Below are positions 40,001 through 48,324 of a DNA stretch of 64,000 bases, piece by piece. Position 1 is the first letter of the stretch. The number at the start of each line of letters is the position of its first letter. A program made the translations under genes and the position numbers. The notes below the pieces were generated by a model that was not told the DNA's origin, searched no databases, and saw nothing but the letters and a program-made list of their open reading frames with translations. Source of the DNA: Xiamenia xianingshaonis (GTDB lineage: Bacteria > Actinomycetota > Coriobacteriia > Coriobacteriales > Eggerthellaceae); contig NZ_CP072829.1 in assembly GCF_017945865.1 (NCBI RefSeq), positions 1,488,001 to 1,552,000 on the forward strand. The letters run 5' to 3'.

Positions 40001-40615
40001 GTCACGGAACGCCTGCACAGCGTCCATGTCGCACATCTCGGCCAGGTCGGCGTAGTCCCACACGGCGACCTTCTGGATTTCGTGGGACGTGCGGAACCCG
40101 TCGAAGAAGTTGAGGAACGGCACGTGGCCTTTGATGGCGGACAAGTGCGCCACGGCGGACAGGTCCATGACTTCCTGCACGCTGCCTTCGGCGAGCATCG
40201 CGAAGCCGGTCTGGCGGCAGGCCATGACATCGGAGTGGTCTCCGAAGATGTTGAGGGCATGGGTGGCCACGGTGCGTGCGGACACGTGGAACACGCAGGG
40301 AAGCTGCTCGGCAGCGATCTTGTACATGTTGGGGATCATGAGAAGCAGGCCCTGGGAAGCCGTGTAGGTGGTGGTCAGCGCACCGGCGGCCAGCGACCCG
40401 TGCACGGTGCCGGCGGCGCCGCCTTCAGACTGCATCTCGCAAACCTTGACCTGCGTGCCGAAGATGTTCTTCCGACCCGCGGCAGACCACTGGTCGACGA
40501 GGTCTGCCATAGGGCTTGACGGGGTGATAGGGTAAATGCCGGCAACTTCAGTGAACGCATAGGACACATAAGCCGCAGCAGTGTTGCCGTCCATTGACTT
40601 GAATTCTCTCGCCAT
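37058..40615 (-). CDS. nifJ: Pyruvate:ferredoxin (flavodoxin) oxidoreductase
   Basis: 1185 residues, the full single-chain homodimeric enzyme. It oxidises pyruvate with CoA to acetyl-CoA and CO2, reducing ferredoxin. Domains in order: the N-terminal pyruvate-binding part (GIYPITPSSPMADLVDQW), the transketolase-like domain II, CoA/gamma region (FWGLGGDGTVGANKNSIKII), two [4Fe-4S] sites (CIQCNQCSFVCPH about residue 695, CMGCGVCVTVCP about 755), the third-cluster cysteines (CAGCAE and ATGCSSIWG) and the TPP site (FGGDGWAYDIGYGG). AAAGGAGAG precedes the ATG. It is a central enzyme of anaerobic energy metabolism. Confidence 0.97.
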   Translation of the reverse strand: MAREFKSMDGNTAAAYVSYAFTEVAGIYPITPSSPMADLVDQWSAAGRKNIFGTQVKVCEMQSEGGAAGTVHGSLAAGALTTTYTASQGLLLMIPNMYKIAAEQLPCVFHVSARTVATHALNIFGDHSDVMACRQTGFAMLAEGSVQEVMDLSAVAHLSAIKGHVPFLNFFDGFRTSHEIQKVAVWDYADLAEMCDMDAVQAFRDHALNPERPAMRGSHENGDIFFQHREACNGTYDALPAIVEECMDAVNARLGTDYQLFNYYGAPDADRVIVVMGSFSEVAEEVVDYLNAQGEKVGLIKVRLYRPFVTKRFVEAIPATCKKMAVLDRTKEPGSIGEPLYQDVVNALVHEGVEGIQVIGGRYGLGSKDTPPASVFAVYSELAKDEPRREFTIGIVDDVTNLSLEEPADAPNTAAPGTIECKFWGLGGDGTVGANKNSIKIIGDHTDKYVQAYFQYDSKKTGGVTISHLRFGDAPIRAPYYVNKADFVACHTPAYITKDFPIVYDVKPGGTVMINCQWTPEELEKQLSAKAKRYIASNDIKLYTINAIDLAIEIGMGKRTNTILQSAFFTLAGVMPQEDAIRYMKDAATKSYLKKGQDVVDMNHRAIEAGATAFVQVEVPESWKTLADDAEAAQLVGKPELVEMVGTIMEPVSRMEGDALPVSAFMKHVDGQFELGAAAYEKRGVAVTVASWDPEKCIQCNQCSFVCPHATIRPYALTAEEAAAAPEQTKMVAAKGKAAQAAGYQYALAVSPLDCMGCGVCVTVCPTDSLSMKPTEEELSQQPVFDYCVRDVADKPDMQDATVKGSQFKQPLLEFSGACAGCAETAYARLVTQLFGDRMFVANATGCSSIWGNPAATSPYAVNKDGHGPAWCNSLFEDNAEHGMGMLLGYEAVRGKMVADTEALLAACADDAALTEAAQAWLDARNDAEASKTTAAAYVAELRRLSDAGTPEAKTVQSILDNAEFLTKKSVWIFGGDGWAYDIGYGGLDHVLASGQDVNVFVFDTEVYSNTGGQASKASNIGQVAQFAAAGKDIKKKSLTEIAMAYGYVYVAQVAMGAKMPQTLKALQEAEAYPGPSLIIGYSPCEMHSIKGGMMNCQNEMKKAVDCGYWNLFRYNPAAPAGKKFTLDSKEPAGGYRDFLMNEARYSRLTREFPDRAEDLFEHNEEEAMARFRHLEKLKDLYAQD

Positions 40616-41030
40616 GTTCTCTCCTTTGGCAGGGATCTGCTCGAACGAGCATGCTCATCTTGTGACAAAGTCACCTACCGTTTCATAATAGCCGAGGGAT
40701 CGAGGCATCGGGCCCACTCCGGCCGGATTGCCGCGTTCCCGCGAGTCCTTTTCGGTAATCGGAAACCGAGCCCCGTTCTTTTCCCTGATCAATTTAGTCA
40801 TATAAATTGTTGCTTATTTGTTAATCATTCGTTAGCTGACTTACATAATCCCAGGTCAGACTATCTCTATCTAAGAAGATCAACGTTACAGTTCATCACG
40901 AATTCGCCATTGCCGATGTTCGCCAAAATTCTATCTGCATAATGAGGCGTGTCGTGCTATGCGTGCGCACTGTTTGAGCATCGCCACGCATGTTTCGGCG
41001 ATGTTCGCATGATCCGAATGGAGGGAACCT
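40616..41030. promoter_or_regulatory. Divergent region between nifJ and the solute-binding protein gene
   Basis: 415 bases. A minus-strand TATTAT near 40682-40687 is the likely nifJ -10 box, and GTGAC-AAA-GTCAC at 40662-40674 lies just downstream of it. The middle (about 40790-40900) is AT-rich. Towards the binding-protein gene there are a CATAAT box near 40938-40943 and two near-identical CGATGTTCGC words (about 40914-40924 and 40998-41008). No open reading frame here is gene-like. Confidence 0.5.
40662..40674. promoter_or_regulatory. Palindrome in the nifJ leader, possible redox-regulator site
   Basis: GTGACAAAGTCAC is a perfect inverted repeat with a 3-base centre, flanked by TT on the left. 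It faintly resembles half of a Rex (TTGTGA...TCACAA) or CRP/FNR-type site. Its place just after the probable nifJ -10 box would suit a repressor. Identity of the regulator is a guess. Confidence 0.35.
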
Positions 41031-42668
41031 ATGCATCAGTTTTCTAGCAACAAGCCCCTGTCTCGCCGTGTTTTCGTCGCAGGCGGCGCCATCGCCGCGG
41101 CGGGCGCCAGCTTGGCACTGGCCGGTTGCAGCTCGGGCAGCCCGTCTTCCGACACCGCCCCTGAAAGCTCCACCGAGCCTGCCGATTCCGGCACCGCCGA
41201 AAGCGCGGGCGGCGGCGAACTTCGCGCGGCCATGAGCTATCAGACGGACAACTTCTTGCCGCTGAACAACTCGTCGGGCCTTGCCCAGGGCGCCAACTGG
41301 AACGTCATCGAAGGCCTGTACATGCTCGACATGTCCACCATGAAGCCTTACCCGGCGCTGGCCGACGGCGAACCGGTGCAGATCTCCGACACCGAGTACG
41401 AGGTGAAGCTGCGCGAGGGCGCGAAGTTCTCCGACGGCACCGCCGTGACCGCGAGTGACGTCGCGGAATCCTACAGCCGCACCGTGAACGCCGACGGCTC
41501 GCTCTACGCCCCGATGCTCGCCTTCATCGACTCGATGGAAGCCAAGGACGACGCCACCGTCACCATCAAGCTGAACACGCCCACCTCGCTGCTCACCACG
41601 CGTTTGGCGCTGGCGCTCGTCGTGCCCACCGCGGCGACCGACGAAGAGCTCACCGCCAAGCCGGTCGGCTCCGGCCCCTACATGTACGACACGCTCAACG
41701 GCCAGGACGGCGGCCAGCTCGTGTTCGTGCCGAACCCCAACTACAACGGCGCCCACCCGGCCACCTGCGACAAGCTCACCTACGACATCATCATCGACGA
41801 CACCGCCCGCACCACCGCGCTCACCGACGGCACCGTCCAGATCATGGAAAACGTGCCTTCGAACCTGATCGCGCAGGCATCGTCCACCGGCGCCGTCACT
41901 GAAAACGCCATGGGATTCGCCGTGGGCTTCATGATGTTCAACACGAAGAAGAAGCCGTTCGACGACGTGCGCGTGCGTCAAGCGTTCCTGTACGCCATCG
42001 ACTACGACAAGATGATCATGAACGCCCTGCCCGACGTCGCCACCAAGCCCGACAGCTTCCTGCCGGCCACGCATGCCTCCTACACCGGGCCGGCGACGAA
42101 CGACTACGCCTACGACATGGACAAGGCCAAGCAGCTGCTTGACGAGGCGGGCGTGTCCGGCCTGTCCATCGTCATCGACACCACCGACGCCGGCTGGATC
42201 AAGGCCATGGCCCCGCAGATCCAGTCCAACCTGAAGGAGCTCGGCATCGACGCCGAAATCTCTTCGCAGGCTTCCAGCTCGCTGTATGCGAACCGCTGCG
42301 ACACCGACGACGACGTGCAGCCGTTCGACATCGTCGTGGCCCCGGGCGATCCGGGCTGCTTCGGCACCGACCCCGACCTGCTGATGAACTGGTGGTACGG
42401 GGACAACAGCTGGACCCAGAAGCGCTCTTCTTGGAAGGACTCCGAAGGCTACAACAAGCTGCACGAGCTCATGGACGCGGCGTTCGCCGCCGAGGGCGAA
42501 GAGCAGAAGGCCAAGTGGGCCGAGTGCTTCGACCTGCTGTCCGAAGAAGTGCCGCTGTATCCGCTGGTGCACCGCCAGGTCGTGACCGCGTACTACGCCG
42601 ACAAGGTGAAGAACTTCATCCCCATCGGCTCTACCGGCCTGCGCTTCCTGGACGTGTCCCCGGCGTAA
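41031..42668 (+). CDS. Extracellular solute-binding lipoprotein, family 5 (Opp/Dpp type)
   Basis: 545 residues with GGAGGGAA upstream. The signal has a twin-arginine motif ([11 protein letters not shown]) and a lipobox LAGC with Cys33, followed by a Ser/Thr/Glu linker, so it is a Tat-exported lipoprotein. SBP_bac_5 landmarks are [45 protein letters not shown] and [14 protein letters not shown]. Opp-type binding proteins carry peptides, nickel or, in SatABCD/SiaEFGI-like systems, sialic acid. The matching permease and ATPase genes lie at 49439-53347 among amino-sugar genes, so an amino-sugar ligand is favoured. Part of its 3' end is duplicated at 45364. Confidence 0.88.
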
Positions 42669-42713
42669 GAACGCCCCGGCTGACCAAGCCATTGCGCTGG
42701 CTGTTCGCACACA

Positions 42714-42747
42714 AAGAAGTCGCCCCGTTCGGGGCGGCTTCTTTTTT
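42714..42747 (+). terminator. Terminator of the solute-binding protein gene
   Basis: AAGAAGTCGCCCCG pairs with CGGGGCGGCTTCTT around a TT loop, followed by TTTTTT. A near-identical copy occurs at 45506-45543. Confidence 0.9.
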
Positions 42748-42848
42748 AGGAAAACGCTGGTCGCCGCCGGGGCCTTCCCCGCACCGCCGCGCTGCAGCGG
42801 TGTGCGGTACGGTGCAAGGGTGCAGCGCTACGAAAAACGATGACTAAT

Positions 42849-43508
42849 TCAGTCAGCTTTTAGGCGCAGACCGGTGCCTTGCCCGAAGTCGACCGTCTCG
42901 TCGGCCGCTTCTACGATGTCGTCCCACGTGCGGCCGTTGTCGCAGTCGCGCACGCCCACCACAAAGCAGCCGGCCTGCGCAGCCGATCGCACGGCATACA
43001 GGGCATCTTCGTACACGGCCACCTCGGCAGGAGCCGCCCCCAGCCGCCGCGCCGCCTCCTGATAGATGTCGGGCTCTCGCTTGCTCTTGCCCACATCGGC
43101 GCAGGTGAGCACGAACTCGAACCAATCCGCAATGCCTTCGCGAGCCAGCAGCGCCTCCACAAGCGCCCGCGCCGTCACCGTAGCCACCGCCATGCGCACG
43201 CCGCAGCTGCGCAAGCGCTCAAGATGCGCCCGCGCCCCTGGTTTCAGGCCGATGTCGTTGCGGTAGTGGGCCTCCATGACGCCGTTCATGCCCGCCGCGA
43301 TGTCATTCGGCGTCTTGTCGGGCAGAAAGCGCTCGTGCATGTAGCGGGCCGTCTCTTCCATCGTCATGGCTTCGATGACAGGGCGAATCTCGTCGACACC
43401 TTCCGTCATCCCCAGACCAGCCAGGTATTCCGGCCCCACTTCCGCCCAGTAGCCCATTGAATCGACCAGCGTCCCATCCAGATCGAACACGGCGAAAAGC
43501 TTGTCCAT
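42849..43508 (-). CDS. HAD-superfamily phosphatase (beta-phosphoglucomutase-like)
   Basis: 219 residues with AAAAGGAG upstream. HAD motif I is FDLDGTLVDSM, motif II lies around MAVATVTARALVEAL, the motif III lysine in VGKSKREPDIYQEAARRLG, and motif IV in VAVYEDALYAVRSA. The cap is a small helical C1 type inserted after motif I. Members dephosphorylate sugar phosphates, pyrimidine nucleotides or similar small molecules; the substrate is not predictable. It has a probable extended -10 promoter (TGCTAGAAT) about 140 bases upstream. It sits between the two copies of the binding-protein 3' sequence. Confidence 0.88.
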   Translation of the reverse strand: MDKLFAVFDLDGTLVDSMGYWAEVGPEYLAGLGMTEGVDEIRPVIEAMTMEETARYMHERFLPDKTPNDIAAGMNGVMEAHYRNDIGLKPGARAHLERLRSCGVRMAVATVTARALVEALLAREGIADWFEFVLTCADVGKSKREPDIYQEAARRLGAAPAEVAVYEDALYAVRSAAQAGCFVVGVRDCDNGRTWDDIVEAADETVDFGQGTGLRLKAD

Positions 43509-43780
43509 GGATCGTTCTCCTTTTGTCGGGTCAACACATTTTTGTGCGCCTGCACAAGCAACAAGCCAAGGTTCACCTGAAGTGAAATGTTGCCGAAACG
43601 GGTTTTCGATCGCGGCGCGATCGACTTTGTCAGCTCGGCCATTCTAGCATTTTCGCCTTTCTTGTGCGTCGTATGCGTCGCGCCTTGCGTTTTCGAAGAT
43701 GTGACAATCTTGCGCTATCCGACAAGCAACCCGGTGCGCGTCTACAACACGGAACGGACCCTCTGCGGCGCATGCCGTCG

Positions 43781-45067
43781 TCAGATCCCCAGCGCGGTCA
43801 GGGGGATGACGTAGACGCCGCTTTCCACGTCGCGGCGGGCCATCTCCCCGGCCCCGACGATCACAGCCATGAAGGACGGATCAGGGTTTCGGGCCGCCGG
43901 ATTGGCCGCCACCTTCTTTCGCAGTCGCGTCAGCGCCCTCACGCCGTCGGGCACCTTGTTCTCGCCCAGCTTCACCTCCAGCGCGGCCCACCGCCCGTCC
44001 CGCAGCTCTATGACGGCGTCGACTTCCAGGCCGTCAGAATCCCGATAGTAGTGAAGCGGGTCGAGCGGGGCGCCCGGGACGGCAGACGCATAAACGGTCA
44101 GGTCGTGGATGCACAGCGACTCGAACAGCAGGCCAAACAGCTGCCCGTCGGACAAAAGCCGCGCCGCGTCCGCCTGCAGGAGGCTGGCCGCCAGCGAAGG
44201 GTCGGCAAAGTAGCGCTTGGGCTTCGTGCGCAGGCGGCTCTTCGAGCGAATAGGCGCGTCCCACCCGGACACCGGCTGCACCAGGTAGAGCGACTCGAAG
44301 GCGGAAATGTACCGGGAGACGGCGTTCTTCTCAGCCTCGGACGGCTCACCGCCGAACGCGTCGCTTGCGACGGTCTGCAGCTTGGCAGCCGTGCCGGCGT
44401 TGCGGGCCAGCGAACGCGCCACGCTCCACGCTACAGAAGAATCCAGCCCGCGTTTCGGAAAGCTGACATCGAACACCGCGTCGAGGTAGGCATCGAGGTA
44501 GGCCGACGAACTTCGAGGCACCTGCTGCAGCGCCGGCCAGCCGCCGCGGCAGATCGCCTTCGCGAGAGGCTCGAGGGTCTGCTGCACCAAGATCGGCTCG
44601 AAGCGACCGTCGAAAAGCCCTGACAAGGAGACGGCGCCGCTCGACTCCCCCGTCTCGAGCAGCGTCATCGTGCTCATGCGCAGCTTGGCTATGCGACCTG
44701 CGCCGCTGTGGCTGACGGCATCTTTTTTCAAGGACGACGATCCTGTCAAGATGAACCGTCCTGGCCGCCCGTCCTCGTCGACCGCGTCCCTCACAGCGTC
44801 CCACACGCCCGGTACGTCCTGCCATTCGTCGACGACGTGCGGACTTTTGCCTAACAGGGCTGTCGTGGGGTCTGCTTCGACAATGCGCTTGACGGCGTCT
44901 CTGCCGAGACGGGTCACGCTCTCCCCAAAGGAAAGGGACGTCCAGGTCTTTCCGCACCACATGGGACCGGCGATCTCCACAGCGCCGAAAAGGTCGAGGA
45001 CCTTTGACACTTGGGCATCGCATATCCGGGGCAGATACCCGGCCGGCTTCAGGCTTCCTTGTTGCAT
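43781..45067 (-). CDS. DUF4143 AAA-type ATPase
   Basis: 428 residues from ATG 45067 with AAAGGAGG 7 bases upstream; open frame continues upstream but without a ribosome site. The P-loop is GPMWCGKT with the family's Trp/Cys, Walker B HVVDEWQDVPGVWDAVRD, sensor ILTGSSS, then the helical region RGGWPALQQ and the DUF4143 C-terminal domain ending in a PD-(D/E)xK-like GLEVDAVIELRDGRWAALEVKLG. Proteins of this design are very common and often mobile in gut anaerobes, and their role is unknown. It lies between the two direct copies of the binding-protein 3' end. Confidence 0.88.
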   Translation of the reverse strand: MQQGSLKPAGYLPRICDAQVSKVLDLFGAVEIAGPMWCGKTWTSLSFGESVTRLGRDAVKRIVEADPTTALLGKSPHVVDEWQDVPGVWDAVRDAVDEDGRPGRFILTGSSSLKKDAVSHSGAGRIAKLRMSTMTLLETGESSGAVSLSGLFDGRFEPILVQQTLEPLAKAICRGGWPALQQVPRSSSAYLDAYLDAVFDVSFPKRGLDSSVAWSVARSLARNAGTAAKLQTVASDAFGGEPSEAEKNAVSRYISAFESLYLVQPVSGWDAPIRSKSRLRTKPKRYFADPSLAASLLQADAARLLSDGQLFGLLFESLCIHDLTVYASAVPGAPLDPLHYYRDSDGLEVDAVIELRDGRWAALEVKLGENKVPDGVRALTRLRKKVAANPAARNPDPSFMAVIVGAGEMARRDVESGVYVIPLTALGI

Positions 45068-45363
45068 ACCACTCCTCCTTTGAGGACACATAGCGTCCAG
45101 AGGATTATCATAATAGGAAACAGAGGATTTTTTCAATAGGAAACAGAGGATCAGGCAGAGTCGGGTCGGACGTGGACGTTGCAAGAAAGCACTGTTCATG
45201 CAAGCACATGATCTTTCGTGAGACGAGGCTTCGGCAGTGCCCGCTTCCGTCTCTGCCGACTGGGCGGTCGGCAATCAAAGCACCTTTGCGACAACCTTTG
45301 AGGCCACGGCATTAGCCGGCTGGCGTCGGACAGCTACGGCCCTGACACGGCGACTGCTGGCGA
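45068..45363. promoter_or_regulatory. Upstream region of the DUF4143 ATPase with tandem repeats
   Basis: AATAGGAAACAGAGGAT occurs twice exactly (45112-45128 and 45135-45151, period 23), with a partial third copy (CAGAGGATTATCATA) at about 45098-45112. On the minus strand these repeats surround TTGAAA and TATGAT boxes spaced 18 bases apart, a likely promoter for the ATPase, so the repeats are probably operators. The remaining 200 bases to 45363 show no gene. Confidence 0.55.
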
Positions 45364-45475
45364 CACCGACCCCGACCTGCTGATGAACTGGTGGTACGGG
45401 GACAACAGCTGGACCCAGAAGCGCTCTTCCTGGAAGGACTCTCCTGGACGTGTCCCCGGCGTAAGAACGTCCCGA
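45364..45475 (+). pseudogene. Truncated second copy of the solute-binding protein gene 3' end
   Basis: Bases 45364-45441 match 42365-42442 of the intact gene with one mismatch (encoding [20 protein letters not shown] and on). Then 203 bases are missing, and from 45442 the sequence matches 42646 onward: the last six codons, the stop, the spacer and the terminator, to about 45570. The 203-base deletion shifts the frame, so the remnant cannot encode the normal C-terminus. There is no start codon or 5' part. It is the decayed tail of a paralogous or duplicated gene. Confidence 0.9.
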
Positions 45476-45505
45476 CTGGCCAAGCCATTGCGCCGGCTGT
45501 CCGCG

Positions 45506-45543
45506 CACAAAGAAGTCGCCCCGTTCGGGGCGACTTCTTTGTG
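45506..45543. terminator. Duplicated terminator hairpin at the end of the binding-protein remnant
   Basis: A perfect 18-bp stem, CACAAAGAAGTCGCCCCG with its complement around a TT loop, derives from the same duplication as the terminator at 42714. On the plus strand the U-run has been lost (TTTGTGGG). It may now serve the ROK-like kinase gene, which ends at 45572 on the minus strand and reads into it. Confidence 0.75.
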
Positions 45544-45571
45544 GGAAAACGCTGGTCGCTGCCGGGGCCTC

Positions 45572-46948
45572 CTAGGCAAGCGCCGGCAGGCTGGCCGCCG
45601 CGACCGACTGGCCGACGCGGCGCATCATCTCGTCAGGCAGCGTCACGTTGATGGCGTCCGCCAGCTCGGGGTATTCCGCCGCCAGCACTTCGTTGCACAC
45701 GTCCACGACCAGGTCGCCGCCGACGCCCGACGCCACGCGCCCAAGCACGAGCAGCGTCTTGATCTCGTAAAACGAGCTGTACAGCACCAGAGTGTGCGCC
45801 AGATACGTGCCGATGCTGCGGAAGATGTCAAGCGCGCCTTCGTGCCCGTCGTTGGCAAGGCCTTGGACCACCTTCAGCTTTTCGGCCGGCGACAGTTCGG
45901 CGTCGAGCGAAATGCCCGCGGCCGGCGCCAGCTTGATGACGGCGTCCTGGCTGAAGTACTTGCAGCCCACGCCGAAGTCGCCCGACCACTCGTCCTGCAT
46001 GGCGCGCGGAGACAGGTCAACCGGCGCGAAGGCCAGCTCGTTGATCCAGCCGAGCACGTTGCCTTCGTCGTTCACGTAGCCCACGGCCTCGCTCGTGCCC
46101 ATGGCGATGCCCAAAATGTCGCCACGGCCCGTGGACATGAAGCCGGCAAGGGCAGTCACGTCGCCGTCGTTGGCCACGACGAGCGGCACGTCGCCGATTT
46201 CCGCGCCGGCGCGGTCGTAGATGGATTTCACCAGGTCGCGCTGTTCGCGCGGCACCTTGATGAACAGCGACGCCACCATGGGACTGTTGCCCACGAACGT
46301 GCCGGCGCTCGACACGCCGATGGCGTCCACGCGCGGCATCTTCGACGCGGCCGTCTTGAACGCGGTCACGATCTCGTTGAAGTGGTATTCCGGATCTTCG
46401 GTGATCTTCGGAAACCAGACCACCTCTTCGGAGTACACCGGCTCGCCGTCGATGACGGCCGACACCTTGCGGTCGGACCCGCCGGCGTCAAACCCGATGC
46501 GGCAGCCCTCCATGTGCCCGCCGATGGCCTTGGCGCCTTCGTTGGCTGCAGGAAACGTCTCGGGCGTGCAGGCGATCACCTCGAGCGGGCGCTCGTAGAC
46601 GTCCATGACGAACCCGTAGTCGAACGCGCGGGAGCCCTCGGGCGAGTACGCTTCGGCCAGGCGGGCGGCGATGTCGTCGCAGCCCTGGATGTAGACGCGG
46701 AAGCCGCCGATGGACCACAGCTCGAACTTCACGAGCCGCTCGACGTAACGAAAGTTTGCCTCGGCAAACTCAGGCCCGCGAACGGCGGATTCCCGCACGG
46801 ACACCAAGCCGTCTTCGCGCTCGACCGCAATGCGGATCGGCCGGTCGGTCCCTTCAAGGTAGGCCTTCATCCACACGCCGAAAGGGATGAAGCCGGGGTC
46901 GAGCTTCGGAGCGGTTTTCAGCTCGTAATCGATGCCCAAGTAGTTCAT
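45572..46948 (-). CDS. ROK-like sugar kinase with N-terminal extension
   Basis: 458 residues from ATG 46948 with AGGAG upstream, 5 bases after the epimerase gene. The actin-like ATPase fold starts only near residue 150 with GFDAGGSDRKVSAVIDGE (phosphate-1 loop). VVANDGDVTALAGF carries the catalytic Asp, and LGIAMGTSEAVGYVN is the second phosphate loop. ROK kinases are normally about 300 residues; the extra 145 at the front (MKAYLEGTDRPIRIAVERE, FELWSIGGFRVYIQGCDD) are unusual. Position next to the epimerase and nag genes suggests N-acetylglucosamine or N-acetylmannosamine phosphorylation. Confidence 0.75.
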   Translation of the reverse strand: MNYLGIDYELKTAPKLDPGFIPFGVWMKAYLEGTDRPIRIAVEREDGLVSVRESAVRGPEFAEANFRYVERLVKFELWSIGGFRVYIQGCDDIAARLAEAYSPEGSRAFDYGFVMDVYERPLEVIACTPETFPAANEGAKAIGGHMEGCRIGFDAGGSDRKVSAVIDGEPVYSEEVVWFPKITEDPEYHFNEIVTAFKTAASKMPRVDAIGVSSAGTFVGNSPMVASLFIKVPREQRDLVKSIYDRAGAEIGDVPLVVANDGDVTALAGFMSTGRGDILGIAMGTSEAVGYVNDEGNVLGWINELAFAPVDLSPRAMQDEWSGDFGVGCKYFSQDAVIKLAPAAGISLDAELSPAEKLKVVQGLANDGHEGALDIFRSIGTYLAHTLVLYSSFYEIKTLLVLGRVASGVGGDLVVDVCNEVLAAEYPELADAINVTLPDEMMRRVGQSVAAASLPALA

Positions 46949-46953
46949 GATCG

Positions 46954-48174
46954 TCAGTCTCCTAAAATCTCGTTGAGTATTTGCTCGGTCATGCACAGCG
47001 CTCGCGGCACGTGGAACGGGCCTTTGAACGTGGAACCTTTCGTGGGCGGCTCGGTCGGCAGGCCATCGCGGCGCAAGTAGCCGTACCACTCGCCGAACTC
47101 GGGGTCGGCGAAGTGGGCCTTGCAGTATTTGAGCGTGCGCACAAGCCAGTCGCGGAAGTACGGATCGCCCGTGTCGCGATAGGCCATCGACGCCGCGATC
47201 ATGATCTCGTTGTGCGGCCACCACAGCTTCATGTCGTGCTCGTAGGCCTCGGGCGGCTTGCCGCAGGCGTCGATGAAGTAGAGCAGCCCGCCGTATTTGT
47301 CGTCCCAGCCGGCCTCGATGGCCAGGCGGAACATGTCGCGGGCCGTGGCGTGCAGCTCTTCGTCGCCGCGGTGGTTGGCCTCTTGCATCATGAACCAGCT
47401 GCACTCGATGTCATGCCCCGGGTTCACGACGCGACCCGCGGTGTAGTCGAGTTCCGGCTCGCCTTCAAGGTTGACGCTTTCGAGCGTGCAGCCCAGCTCG
47501 GGCCGGTAATGCTCGCGCACGATGCGGTCGGTGCACTCGCGGGCGTGCCGGTCGTATTCCTCCGCATGGGCGGCGTCGACGCGGCGCATGATCGAAATGA
47601 TGTTGAGGAAGATCATCGGATCCCCCAGCGCCCGTCCCGCGCGCGTTGCCGCGATGGTCTTCGGACCGAGGCCCGTCGGGTCTTCGATGAGGCCGTTGTT
47701 GAGGTCGTACACCAGCCGATAGGCGCGGCGGGCGCGGGCCAGGCACGCCTCGTCGCCGGTCACGCCGTAGTATTCGGCGTTGGCGATGCAGTAGAACCCT
47801 TCCGAAAAGCAGTAGCGGCGCTGACGCAGCGGGCGGCCGTCTGCCGTGACCGTGAAGTAGAGACGGCCGGACGCCTCGCGGTTGATGCAGTGGTCTTCCA
47901 AAAACTCCAGGCAGCTCTTCGCCGCCGCCAGCCATTCGGGACGCGTGCCATAGACGTGGCACAGATACGCATAGGTCCACGCGCAACGACCCTGCATCCA
48001 CGCGTTTTTGTCGGTGGAATACACCGCGCCTTCGCGGTCGAGGCAGGTGTACACGCCGCCGTTGACCGGATCGATGCCGTGCTCGCGCCAAAAGGCCTCG
48101 CACGTGTCCAGCTGCTCGCGGATCCAATCGCGCCATACAACCAGTTCGCGGTCGCCTTCTATCTTGTCTGTCAC
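46954..48174 (-). CDS. N-acylglucosamine 2-epimerase (AGE/RnBP family)
   Basis: 406 residues, standard length for AGE. The (alpha/alpha)6 barrel is recognisable from GGVYTCLDREGAVYSTDKNAW (read as GGVYTCLDREG and STDKNAWMQGR), RLYFTVTADGRPL, FCFS-like RRYCFSEGFYCIAN, VNPGHDIECSWFMMQEA with the catalytic His, and KLWWPHNEIMIA. AGE interconverts unphosphorylated ManNAc and GlcNAc. With a NanA-type lyase and a ROK kinase this points to a Bacteroides fragilis-like sialic-acid route rather than the NanK-NanE phosphate route. A terminator separates it from the upstream transporter-aldolase operon. Confidence 0.88.
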   Translation of the reverse strand: MTDKIEGDRELVVWRDWIREQLDTCEAFWREHGIDPVNGGVYTCLDREGAVYSTDKNAWMQGRCAWTYAYLCHVYGTRPEWLAAAKSCLEFLEDHCINREASGRLYFTVTADGRPLRQRRYCFSEGFYCIANAEYYGVTGDEACLARARRAYRLVYDLNNGLIEDPTGLGPKTIAATRAGRALGDPMIFLNIISIMRRVDAAHAEEYDRHARECTDRIVREHYRPELGCTLESVNLEGEPELDYTAGRVVNPGHDIECSWFMMQEANHRGDEELHATARDMFRLAIEAGWDDKYGGLLYFIDACGKPPEAYEHDMKLWWPHNEIMIAASMAYRDTGDPYFRDWLVRTLKYCKAHFADPEFGEWYGYLRRDGLPTEPPTKGSTFKGPFHVPRALCMTEQILNEILGD

Positions 48175-48324
48175 AGGTCCCCCTTTCGTTTGGTCTTTGT
48201 AAGCAAAGCTGCCTTCATTCTAGTGCGCGAAGGCTCAAGCGGCGAAACTGTCAGCCAACCGTTGGCGCTGCACACGGCCGGAAAACCCGCGCTCACGCGC
48301 AGAAGGTGCTACGGCCACGCCCGG

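Follow-up and report, generated by a model that had tools for sequence, protein, structure and literature searches.

How did two genes, one for a HAD-superfamily phosphatase and one for an AAA_14/DUF4143 ATPase, come to lie between two copies of the tail of a solute-binding protein gene in the gut bacterium Xiamenia xianingshaonis? The window analyzed here was the 64,000-bp stretch from positions 1,488,001 to 1,552,000 of contig NZ_CP072829.1 (all coordinates below are window positions unless a locus is named), and the element in question lay between the binding-protein gene and a putative ROK-type kinase gene. The favored answer, given a probability of about 0.78, is that after the split from the relative Slackia sp. 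ZJ119 a 2.6-kb segment with these two genes would have been inserted between the binding-protein and kinase genes, directly duplicating the end of its target.

Duplicated gene tail and terminator

The genome was a single 2.26-Mb contig, and repeats were checked within the window and across the whole genome. The locus was composed of the following features:

41031 to 42668, + strand: intact solute-binding protein gene (SBP_bac_5; Pfam PF00496; protein 95% identical in Slackia sp. ZJ119)
42362 to 42442, + strand: repeat segment 1, copy 1, coding (alignment)
42443 to 42645, + strand: 203 bp shared by copy 1 and ZJ119 but lacking in copy 2 (three-way alignment)
42646 to 42775, + strand: repeat segment 2, copy 1, with the last 23 bp of the gene, the stop codon, and a two-way terminator (alignment)
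42776 to 45360, no strand: putative inserted segment, 2,585 bp (the corresponding ZJ119 site lacks it)
42849 to 43508, − strand: HAD-superfamily phosphatase gene (HAD_2; Pfam)
43781 to 45067, − strand: AAA_14/DUF4143 ATPase gene, candidate defence PDC-S01 (Pfam, PADLOC, alignment)
45361 to 45441, + strand: repeat segment 1, copy 2, orphan and non-coding, two mismatches in 81 (alignment)
45442 to 45570, + strand: repeat segment 2, copy 2, 92% identical (alignment)
45572 to 46951, − strand: putative ROK-type kinase gene (98% identical and adjoining the binding-protein gene in ZJ119; weak ROK match; fold matches)

The source of the repeats was the binding-protein gene's 3' end, and they fell into two segments: (i) 42365 to 42442 matched 45364 to 45441 with one mismatch, and extension by three bases (to 42362 and 45361) gave 81 bp with two mismatches (79/81 identical), and (ii) 42646 to 42775 matched 45442 to 45570 with about 11 to 13 differences and one 1-base gap, spanning the stop codon and hairpin terminator of the gene. 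Flank-versus-flank comparison gave E values of ~1e-49 and ~1e-36 for the two segments, so the match was not due to chance, and the whole-genome search placed both segments at these two sites only. The copies were in direct orientation and 3.0 kb apart. Recombination between them, raised in the preliminary description below as a way to delete the phosphatase and ATPase genes, may be possible, and no such 3-kb deletion was observed. The gap between the segments in copy 1 measured exactly 203 bases, all missing from copy 2; since 203 is not a multiple of three, copy 2 was out of frame. A preliminary description of the window, made from its letters alone, had listed the repeat coordinates, the missing 203 bases with the shifted frame, and the shared direction and spacing of the copies, and the alignments reproduced all of these; it had also let copy 2 end exactly at the kinase stop codon (45572 to 45574), and copy 2 does abut the kinase 3' end but stops one base short. 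Repeats are classic points of misassembly; the two copies, however, were 8% different in one part and further distinguished by the 203-bp deletion, all in a one-contig genome, and an assembly artefact is scarcely credible here.

Empty site in a close relative

The closest relative compared, Slackia sp. ZJ119 (genome G002, locus L044), was 94% to 95% identical in DNA sequence here. It displayed the same gene order as the window (PFOR, binding protein, kinase, N-acetylglucosamine [GlcNAc] 2-epimerase, DHDPS-family lyase, ABC transporter), lacked the HAD and ATPase genes, and carried a single two-way terminator where the binding-protein and kinase genes meet. Window 40001 to 42776 corresponded to L044 8970 to 11745 and window 45442 to 48200 to L044 11616 to 14375, the 130-bp overlap being the terminator segment. 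A relative of exactly this kind, with the intact binding-protein gene by the kinase and no phosphatase or ATPase, had been expected in the preliminary description. Its further proposal, that the binding-protein gene or a paralogue once sat beside the kinase, agrees in its first part with the adjacency in ZJ119, where the kinase gene is, judged by gene order, the original downstream convergent neighbor; only the tail was duplicated, and neither a second whole gene nor a paralogue is needed.

A three-way alignment of the 130-bp segment had 17 columns in which ZJ119 stood apart from two agreeing window copies, 4 in which copy 1 was the odd one out, 8 in which copy 2 was, and 1 with three states. 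Copy 1 and copy 2 differed at 13 positions, copy 1 and ZJ119 at 22, and copy 2 and ZJ119 at 26; the window copies were closer to each other than to ZJ119, and thus the duplication is younger than the ZJ119 split. Together with the empty site, these distances support the earlier suggestion that the two intervening genes arrived later. If the insert were instead ancestral and ZJ119 had lost it through recombination between the repeats, a deletion that such repeats would permit, the ZJ119 copy should match one window copy as closely as the window copies match each other, contrary to the values of 22 and 26 against 13; the HAD gene was moreover absent or distant in the remaining congeners too (absent from ZJ119 and B82_7, and just 32% identical in D16-34), making this history very improbable.

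The genus comparison covered four genomes. The binding-protein neighborhood had another gene order in the other two congeners, and ATPase relatives in the congeners stood at other sites and were at most 54% identical. A two-step course, in which a tandem duplication of the tail and terminator preceded the arrival of the two genes between the copies, fits all alignments made here; it is nevertheless rather improbable, as a bare tandem duplication was not found in the four genomes and the occurrence of the same end state at other accessory genes (see below) favors one event.

Flanking repeats at other accessory genes

The flanking-repeat survey scored direct repeats of at least 35 bp with E ≤1e-5 between the 1.5-kb flanks of genes, with open reading frames at conserved sialic-acid-type loci as control. 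Such repeats flanked 11 of 72 DUF4143 ATPase genes of related genomes (paralogue neighbors left out) and 6 of 38 Fic and AlbA genes from the same bacterial family, giving 17/110 accessory genes overall versus 0/98 control genes. Because the Fic/AlbA genes were also positive, the repeats mark accessory genes generally and not the DUF4143 ATPase; the idea that DUF4143 genes are self-mobile, target-duplicating elements, to which 11/72 versus 0/98 might point, was rejected as not DUF4143-specific. At five loci (L177, L179, L202, L170, and L320), the repeat was the 3' end of a neighboring gene, including its stop codon, recurring beyond the accessory gene, and the L202 and L320 repeats included a terminator hairpin. 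This small survey suggests that insertions duplicating a terminator or 3' end are common for accessory genes in Eggerthellaceae.

Flanking direct repeats around DUF4143, Fic, or AlbA genes were seen at L325, L319, and L323 in addition to the five loci above. At L170, two congeners had both flanks without an ATPase gene between them, the flanks being ~1 kb apart in one.

Proposed course of the insertion

The accessory segment (HAD phosphatase plus ATPase) would have entered the convergent junction of the binding-protein and kinase genes after the ZJ119 split. Insertion and duplication were probably one event, in which about 414 bp of target, namely the two-way terminator together with the final part of the binding-protein gene, would have been directly duplicated (the original length of 414 bp is itself a reconstruction), and the kinase-side copy would have lost 203 bp during the event or afterwards. 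The binding-protein and kinase genes would each still end at a terminator, and the insertion presumably breaks nothing because the terminator was duplicated; the locus would accordingly represent a clean, datable accessory insertion that spared its neighbors through a duplicated two-way terminator. The joining may have been by illegitimate repair, by template switching, or by recombination with incoming DNA bearing a homologous tail.

The inserted segment had no counterpart elsewhere in its own genome. An insertion sequence (IS) element, a composite transposon, or a plasmid piece was considered and rejected: there was no transposase among the open reading frames or Pfam matches, no terminal inverted repeats, and no plasmid match. 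The flanking repeats also far exceeded the usual IS/transposon target duplications in length.

The two copies differed at 2/104 coding versus 11/107 non-coding bases, an imbalance slightly beyond that expected from free drift of an orphan copy, and one of the copies might have come from a donor strain: DNA of a sister strain, carrying the phosphatase gene, the ATPase gene, and a homologous binding-protein tail, might have been joined by one crossover or by one-sided homologous recombination, with no true target duplication. Pooling of six loci gave 45/721 coding versus 48/274 non-coding differences, with 26 of the 45 at third positions, a pattern to be expected if coding constraint had acted on the two copies during part of their divergence. 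However, purifying selection confined to the intact copy also predicts fewer coding differences and a lean toward third positions (the authors' estimate for this constraint being a ratio of ~0.6 and a third-position share of 46%), and the pooled counts minus L320, which had a poor alignment edge, were 37/545 versus 27/226, about as selection on the intact copy predicts. Coding conservation (p = 0.005 for the window and 3e-7 pooled) was therefore dismissed as proof of a donor copy, as intact-copy selection explains most of it; no donor was found, and the donor strain is retained as an unlikely rival. Besides this imbalance, two points weigh against insertion with target duplication: ZJ119 was the single relative close enough to reveal the empty site, and the conserved-locus control came partly from other genomes than the accessory sets.

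The two terminator hairpins

Folding identified one hairpin per copy:

42716 to 42741, no strand: terminator hairpin of copy 1 (+ strand U-tract kept; C·A mismatch in − strand RNA)
45512 to 45537, no strand: terminator hairpin of copy 2 (stem fully paired on either strand; shorter U-tract on the + strand)

The ZJ119 hairpin folded into a perfect stem on either strand. In copy 1, a T·G wobble in the + strand RNA corresponded to the C·A mismatch in the − strand RNA, with folding energies of −16.5 against −21.0 kcal/mol for the 26-nt hairpin, and the + strand U-tract was intact (TTTTTT). In copy 2, a paired change restored the perfect stem on both strands, while the + strand U-tract was down to TTTGTG. 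Copy 2 had been called decayed; this holds for its coding part, which is out of frame, but not for its hairpin, whose stem was kept perfect by the paired change. A handful of substitutions might suggest a division of labor, copy 1 serving the binding-protein gene (+ strand) and copy 2 the kinase gene (− strand).

The ATPase and its 23-bp arrays

The window ATPase matched PADLOC model PDLC04790 of PDC-S01 (E = 1.7e-60) and Pfam families PF13635 and PF13173, both over cut-off, and its closest relative was 72% identical. Alignment showed a Walker A motif (GPMWCGKTWTS), a DE Walker B motif, and a D...ExK nuclease-like motif; there was no sequence match in PDB, and the search of viral contigs found none of this ATPase. 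It belongs to PDC-S01, a widespread candidate anti-virus family.

Upstream of the ATPase start, over the promoter, lay one further feature:

45089 to 45157, − strand: 23-bp tandem repeat array with two good units CCTCTGTTTCCTATT.. and one or two weak ones

The good units were at 45112 to 45126 and 45135 to 45149, and the exact unit had no other occurrence in the genome. For 82 ATPase homologues from the family and order, repeat period was scored in the 220 bp preceding the start codon, a high score being at least 27/44 matches at period 23. The best period was 23 in 73/82 homologues, and high scores at this period were reached by 66/82 homologues versus 1/121 control promoters. The arrays had about 2 to 5 units and ended a median of 30 bp upstream of the start, and a -10-like hexamer lay inside the array in 57 of the 68 promoters having a good hexamer. 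Unit sequence varied by gene yet tracked protein identity (Spearman 0.375; maximum of 500 permutations 0.165), with units equally oriented in 260/314 closer pairs. A Bifidobacterium avesanii homologue, 50% identical, likewise had a 23-bp array. Phylum-wide, DUF4143 genes outside the subfamily showed mixed periods: 23 was the most frequent, and periods of 22, 24, and ~32 (the last with inverted parts) also occurred. The 23-bp rule is accordingly restricted to the subfamily.

Arrays were also seen before DUF4143 ATPase genes at L131 to L234 and L114. At L222 (2988 to 3069 and 4431 to 4512) and L168 (1416 to 1478 and 2951 to 3013), the flanking repeats were themselves 23-bp-type arrays on either side of the ATPase gene. 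The distant DUF4143 genes at L357, L359, L360, and L362 had no 23-bp arrays and instead carried direct and inverted repeats of the ACGGCCTTATTT...AATAAGGCCGTA type at a spacing of ~32 before the start.

On the simplest reading of these promoters, the ATPase would bind the array ahead of its gene and control its own promoter. More broadly, the chances appear about even that ATPases of this subfamily read their own promoter-overlapping 23-bp arrays, protein and repeat having changed together at a constant spacing of about two helical turns, and that each gene with its array forms a self-contained unit, most simply one autorepressed until the protein is displaced from the array. The literature searched, outside which most subscription journals lay, named DUF4143 in one paper and gave no description of a 23-bp array upstream of DUF4143 genes. 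A conserved, co-varying array would offer a direct handle on what the PDC-S01 protein binds, and the arrays are considered a more interesting lead than the insertion itself.

Phosphatase and kinase genes

The closest relative of the HAD protein among 60 related genomes was just 42% identical. The kinase had no NCBIfam match, no PDB sequence match, and no Pfam match over cut-off (ROK PF00480, E = 0.0024, fell below its cut-off), and its structural model matched ROK kinases and regulators in Foldseek at E 1e-6, at a mean predicted local distance difference test (pLDDT) score of only 55.5; this low-confidence model served to judge the fold class and nothing more. Lying by the epimerase and lyase genes, it resembles a ROK kinase, perhaps one for N-acetylmannosamine. 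The kinase carried an extra N-terminal part of ~140 residues, and its position next to the epimerase gene was conserved in at least six relatives. An Rfam scan of the region gave no match.

Comparison with known systems

The insertion is a further example of an already known type of genome change, insertion with long target duplication, which was reportedly described by Nobusato, Uchiyama, Ohashi, and Kobayashi in 2000 (Gene 259:99-108). Insertion with long, variable target duplication is known for restriction-modification genes, according to PMC3031569. As in the cases given there, the accessory segment in the window was flanked by direct repeats of host sequence that were long and variable, a relative had a single-copy empty site, and there was no transposase; unlike those cases, which concern restriction-modification and related genes, the cargo here was HAD plus DUF4143 ATPase genes, and the duplicated target was a gene 3' end with its terminator (PMC3031569).

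Among the (candidate) defence systems of prokaryotes, PDC-S01 is described as the fourth most common, and the window ATPase had the combination of ATPase and PD-(D/E)XK-like parts given for it (PMC12988326); the text of that paper does not mention an upstream 23-bp array. The RptR repressor binds three direct repeats in a defence-island promoter (PMC12255303). The ATPase arrays are likewise direct repeats in a promoter, here that of a candidate defence gene, and those of RptR act as an operator; RptR, however, is a separate, small repressor whose site is TAGCTA (PMC12255303), whereas the ATPase arrays had no separate regulator gene and their repeat sequence changed along with the ATPase.
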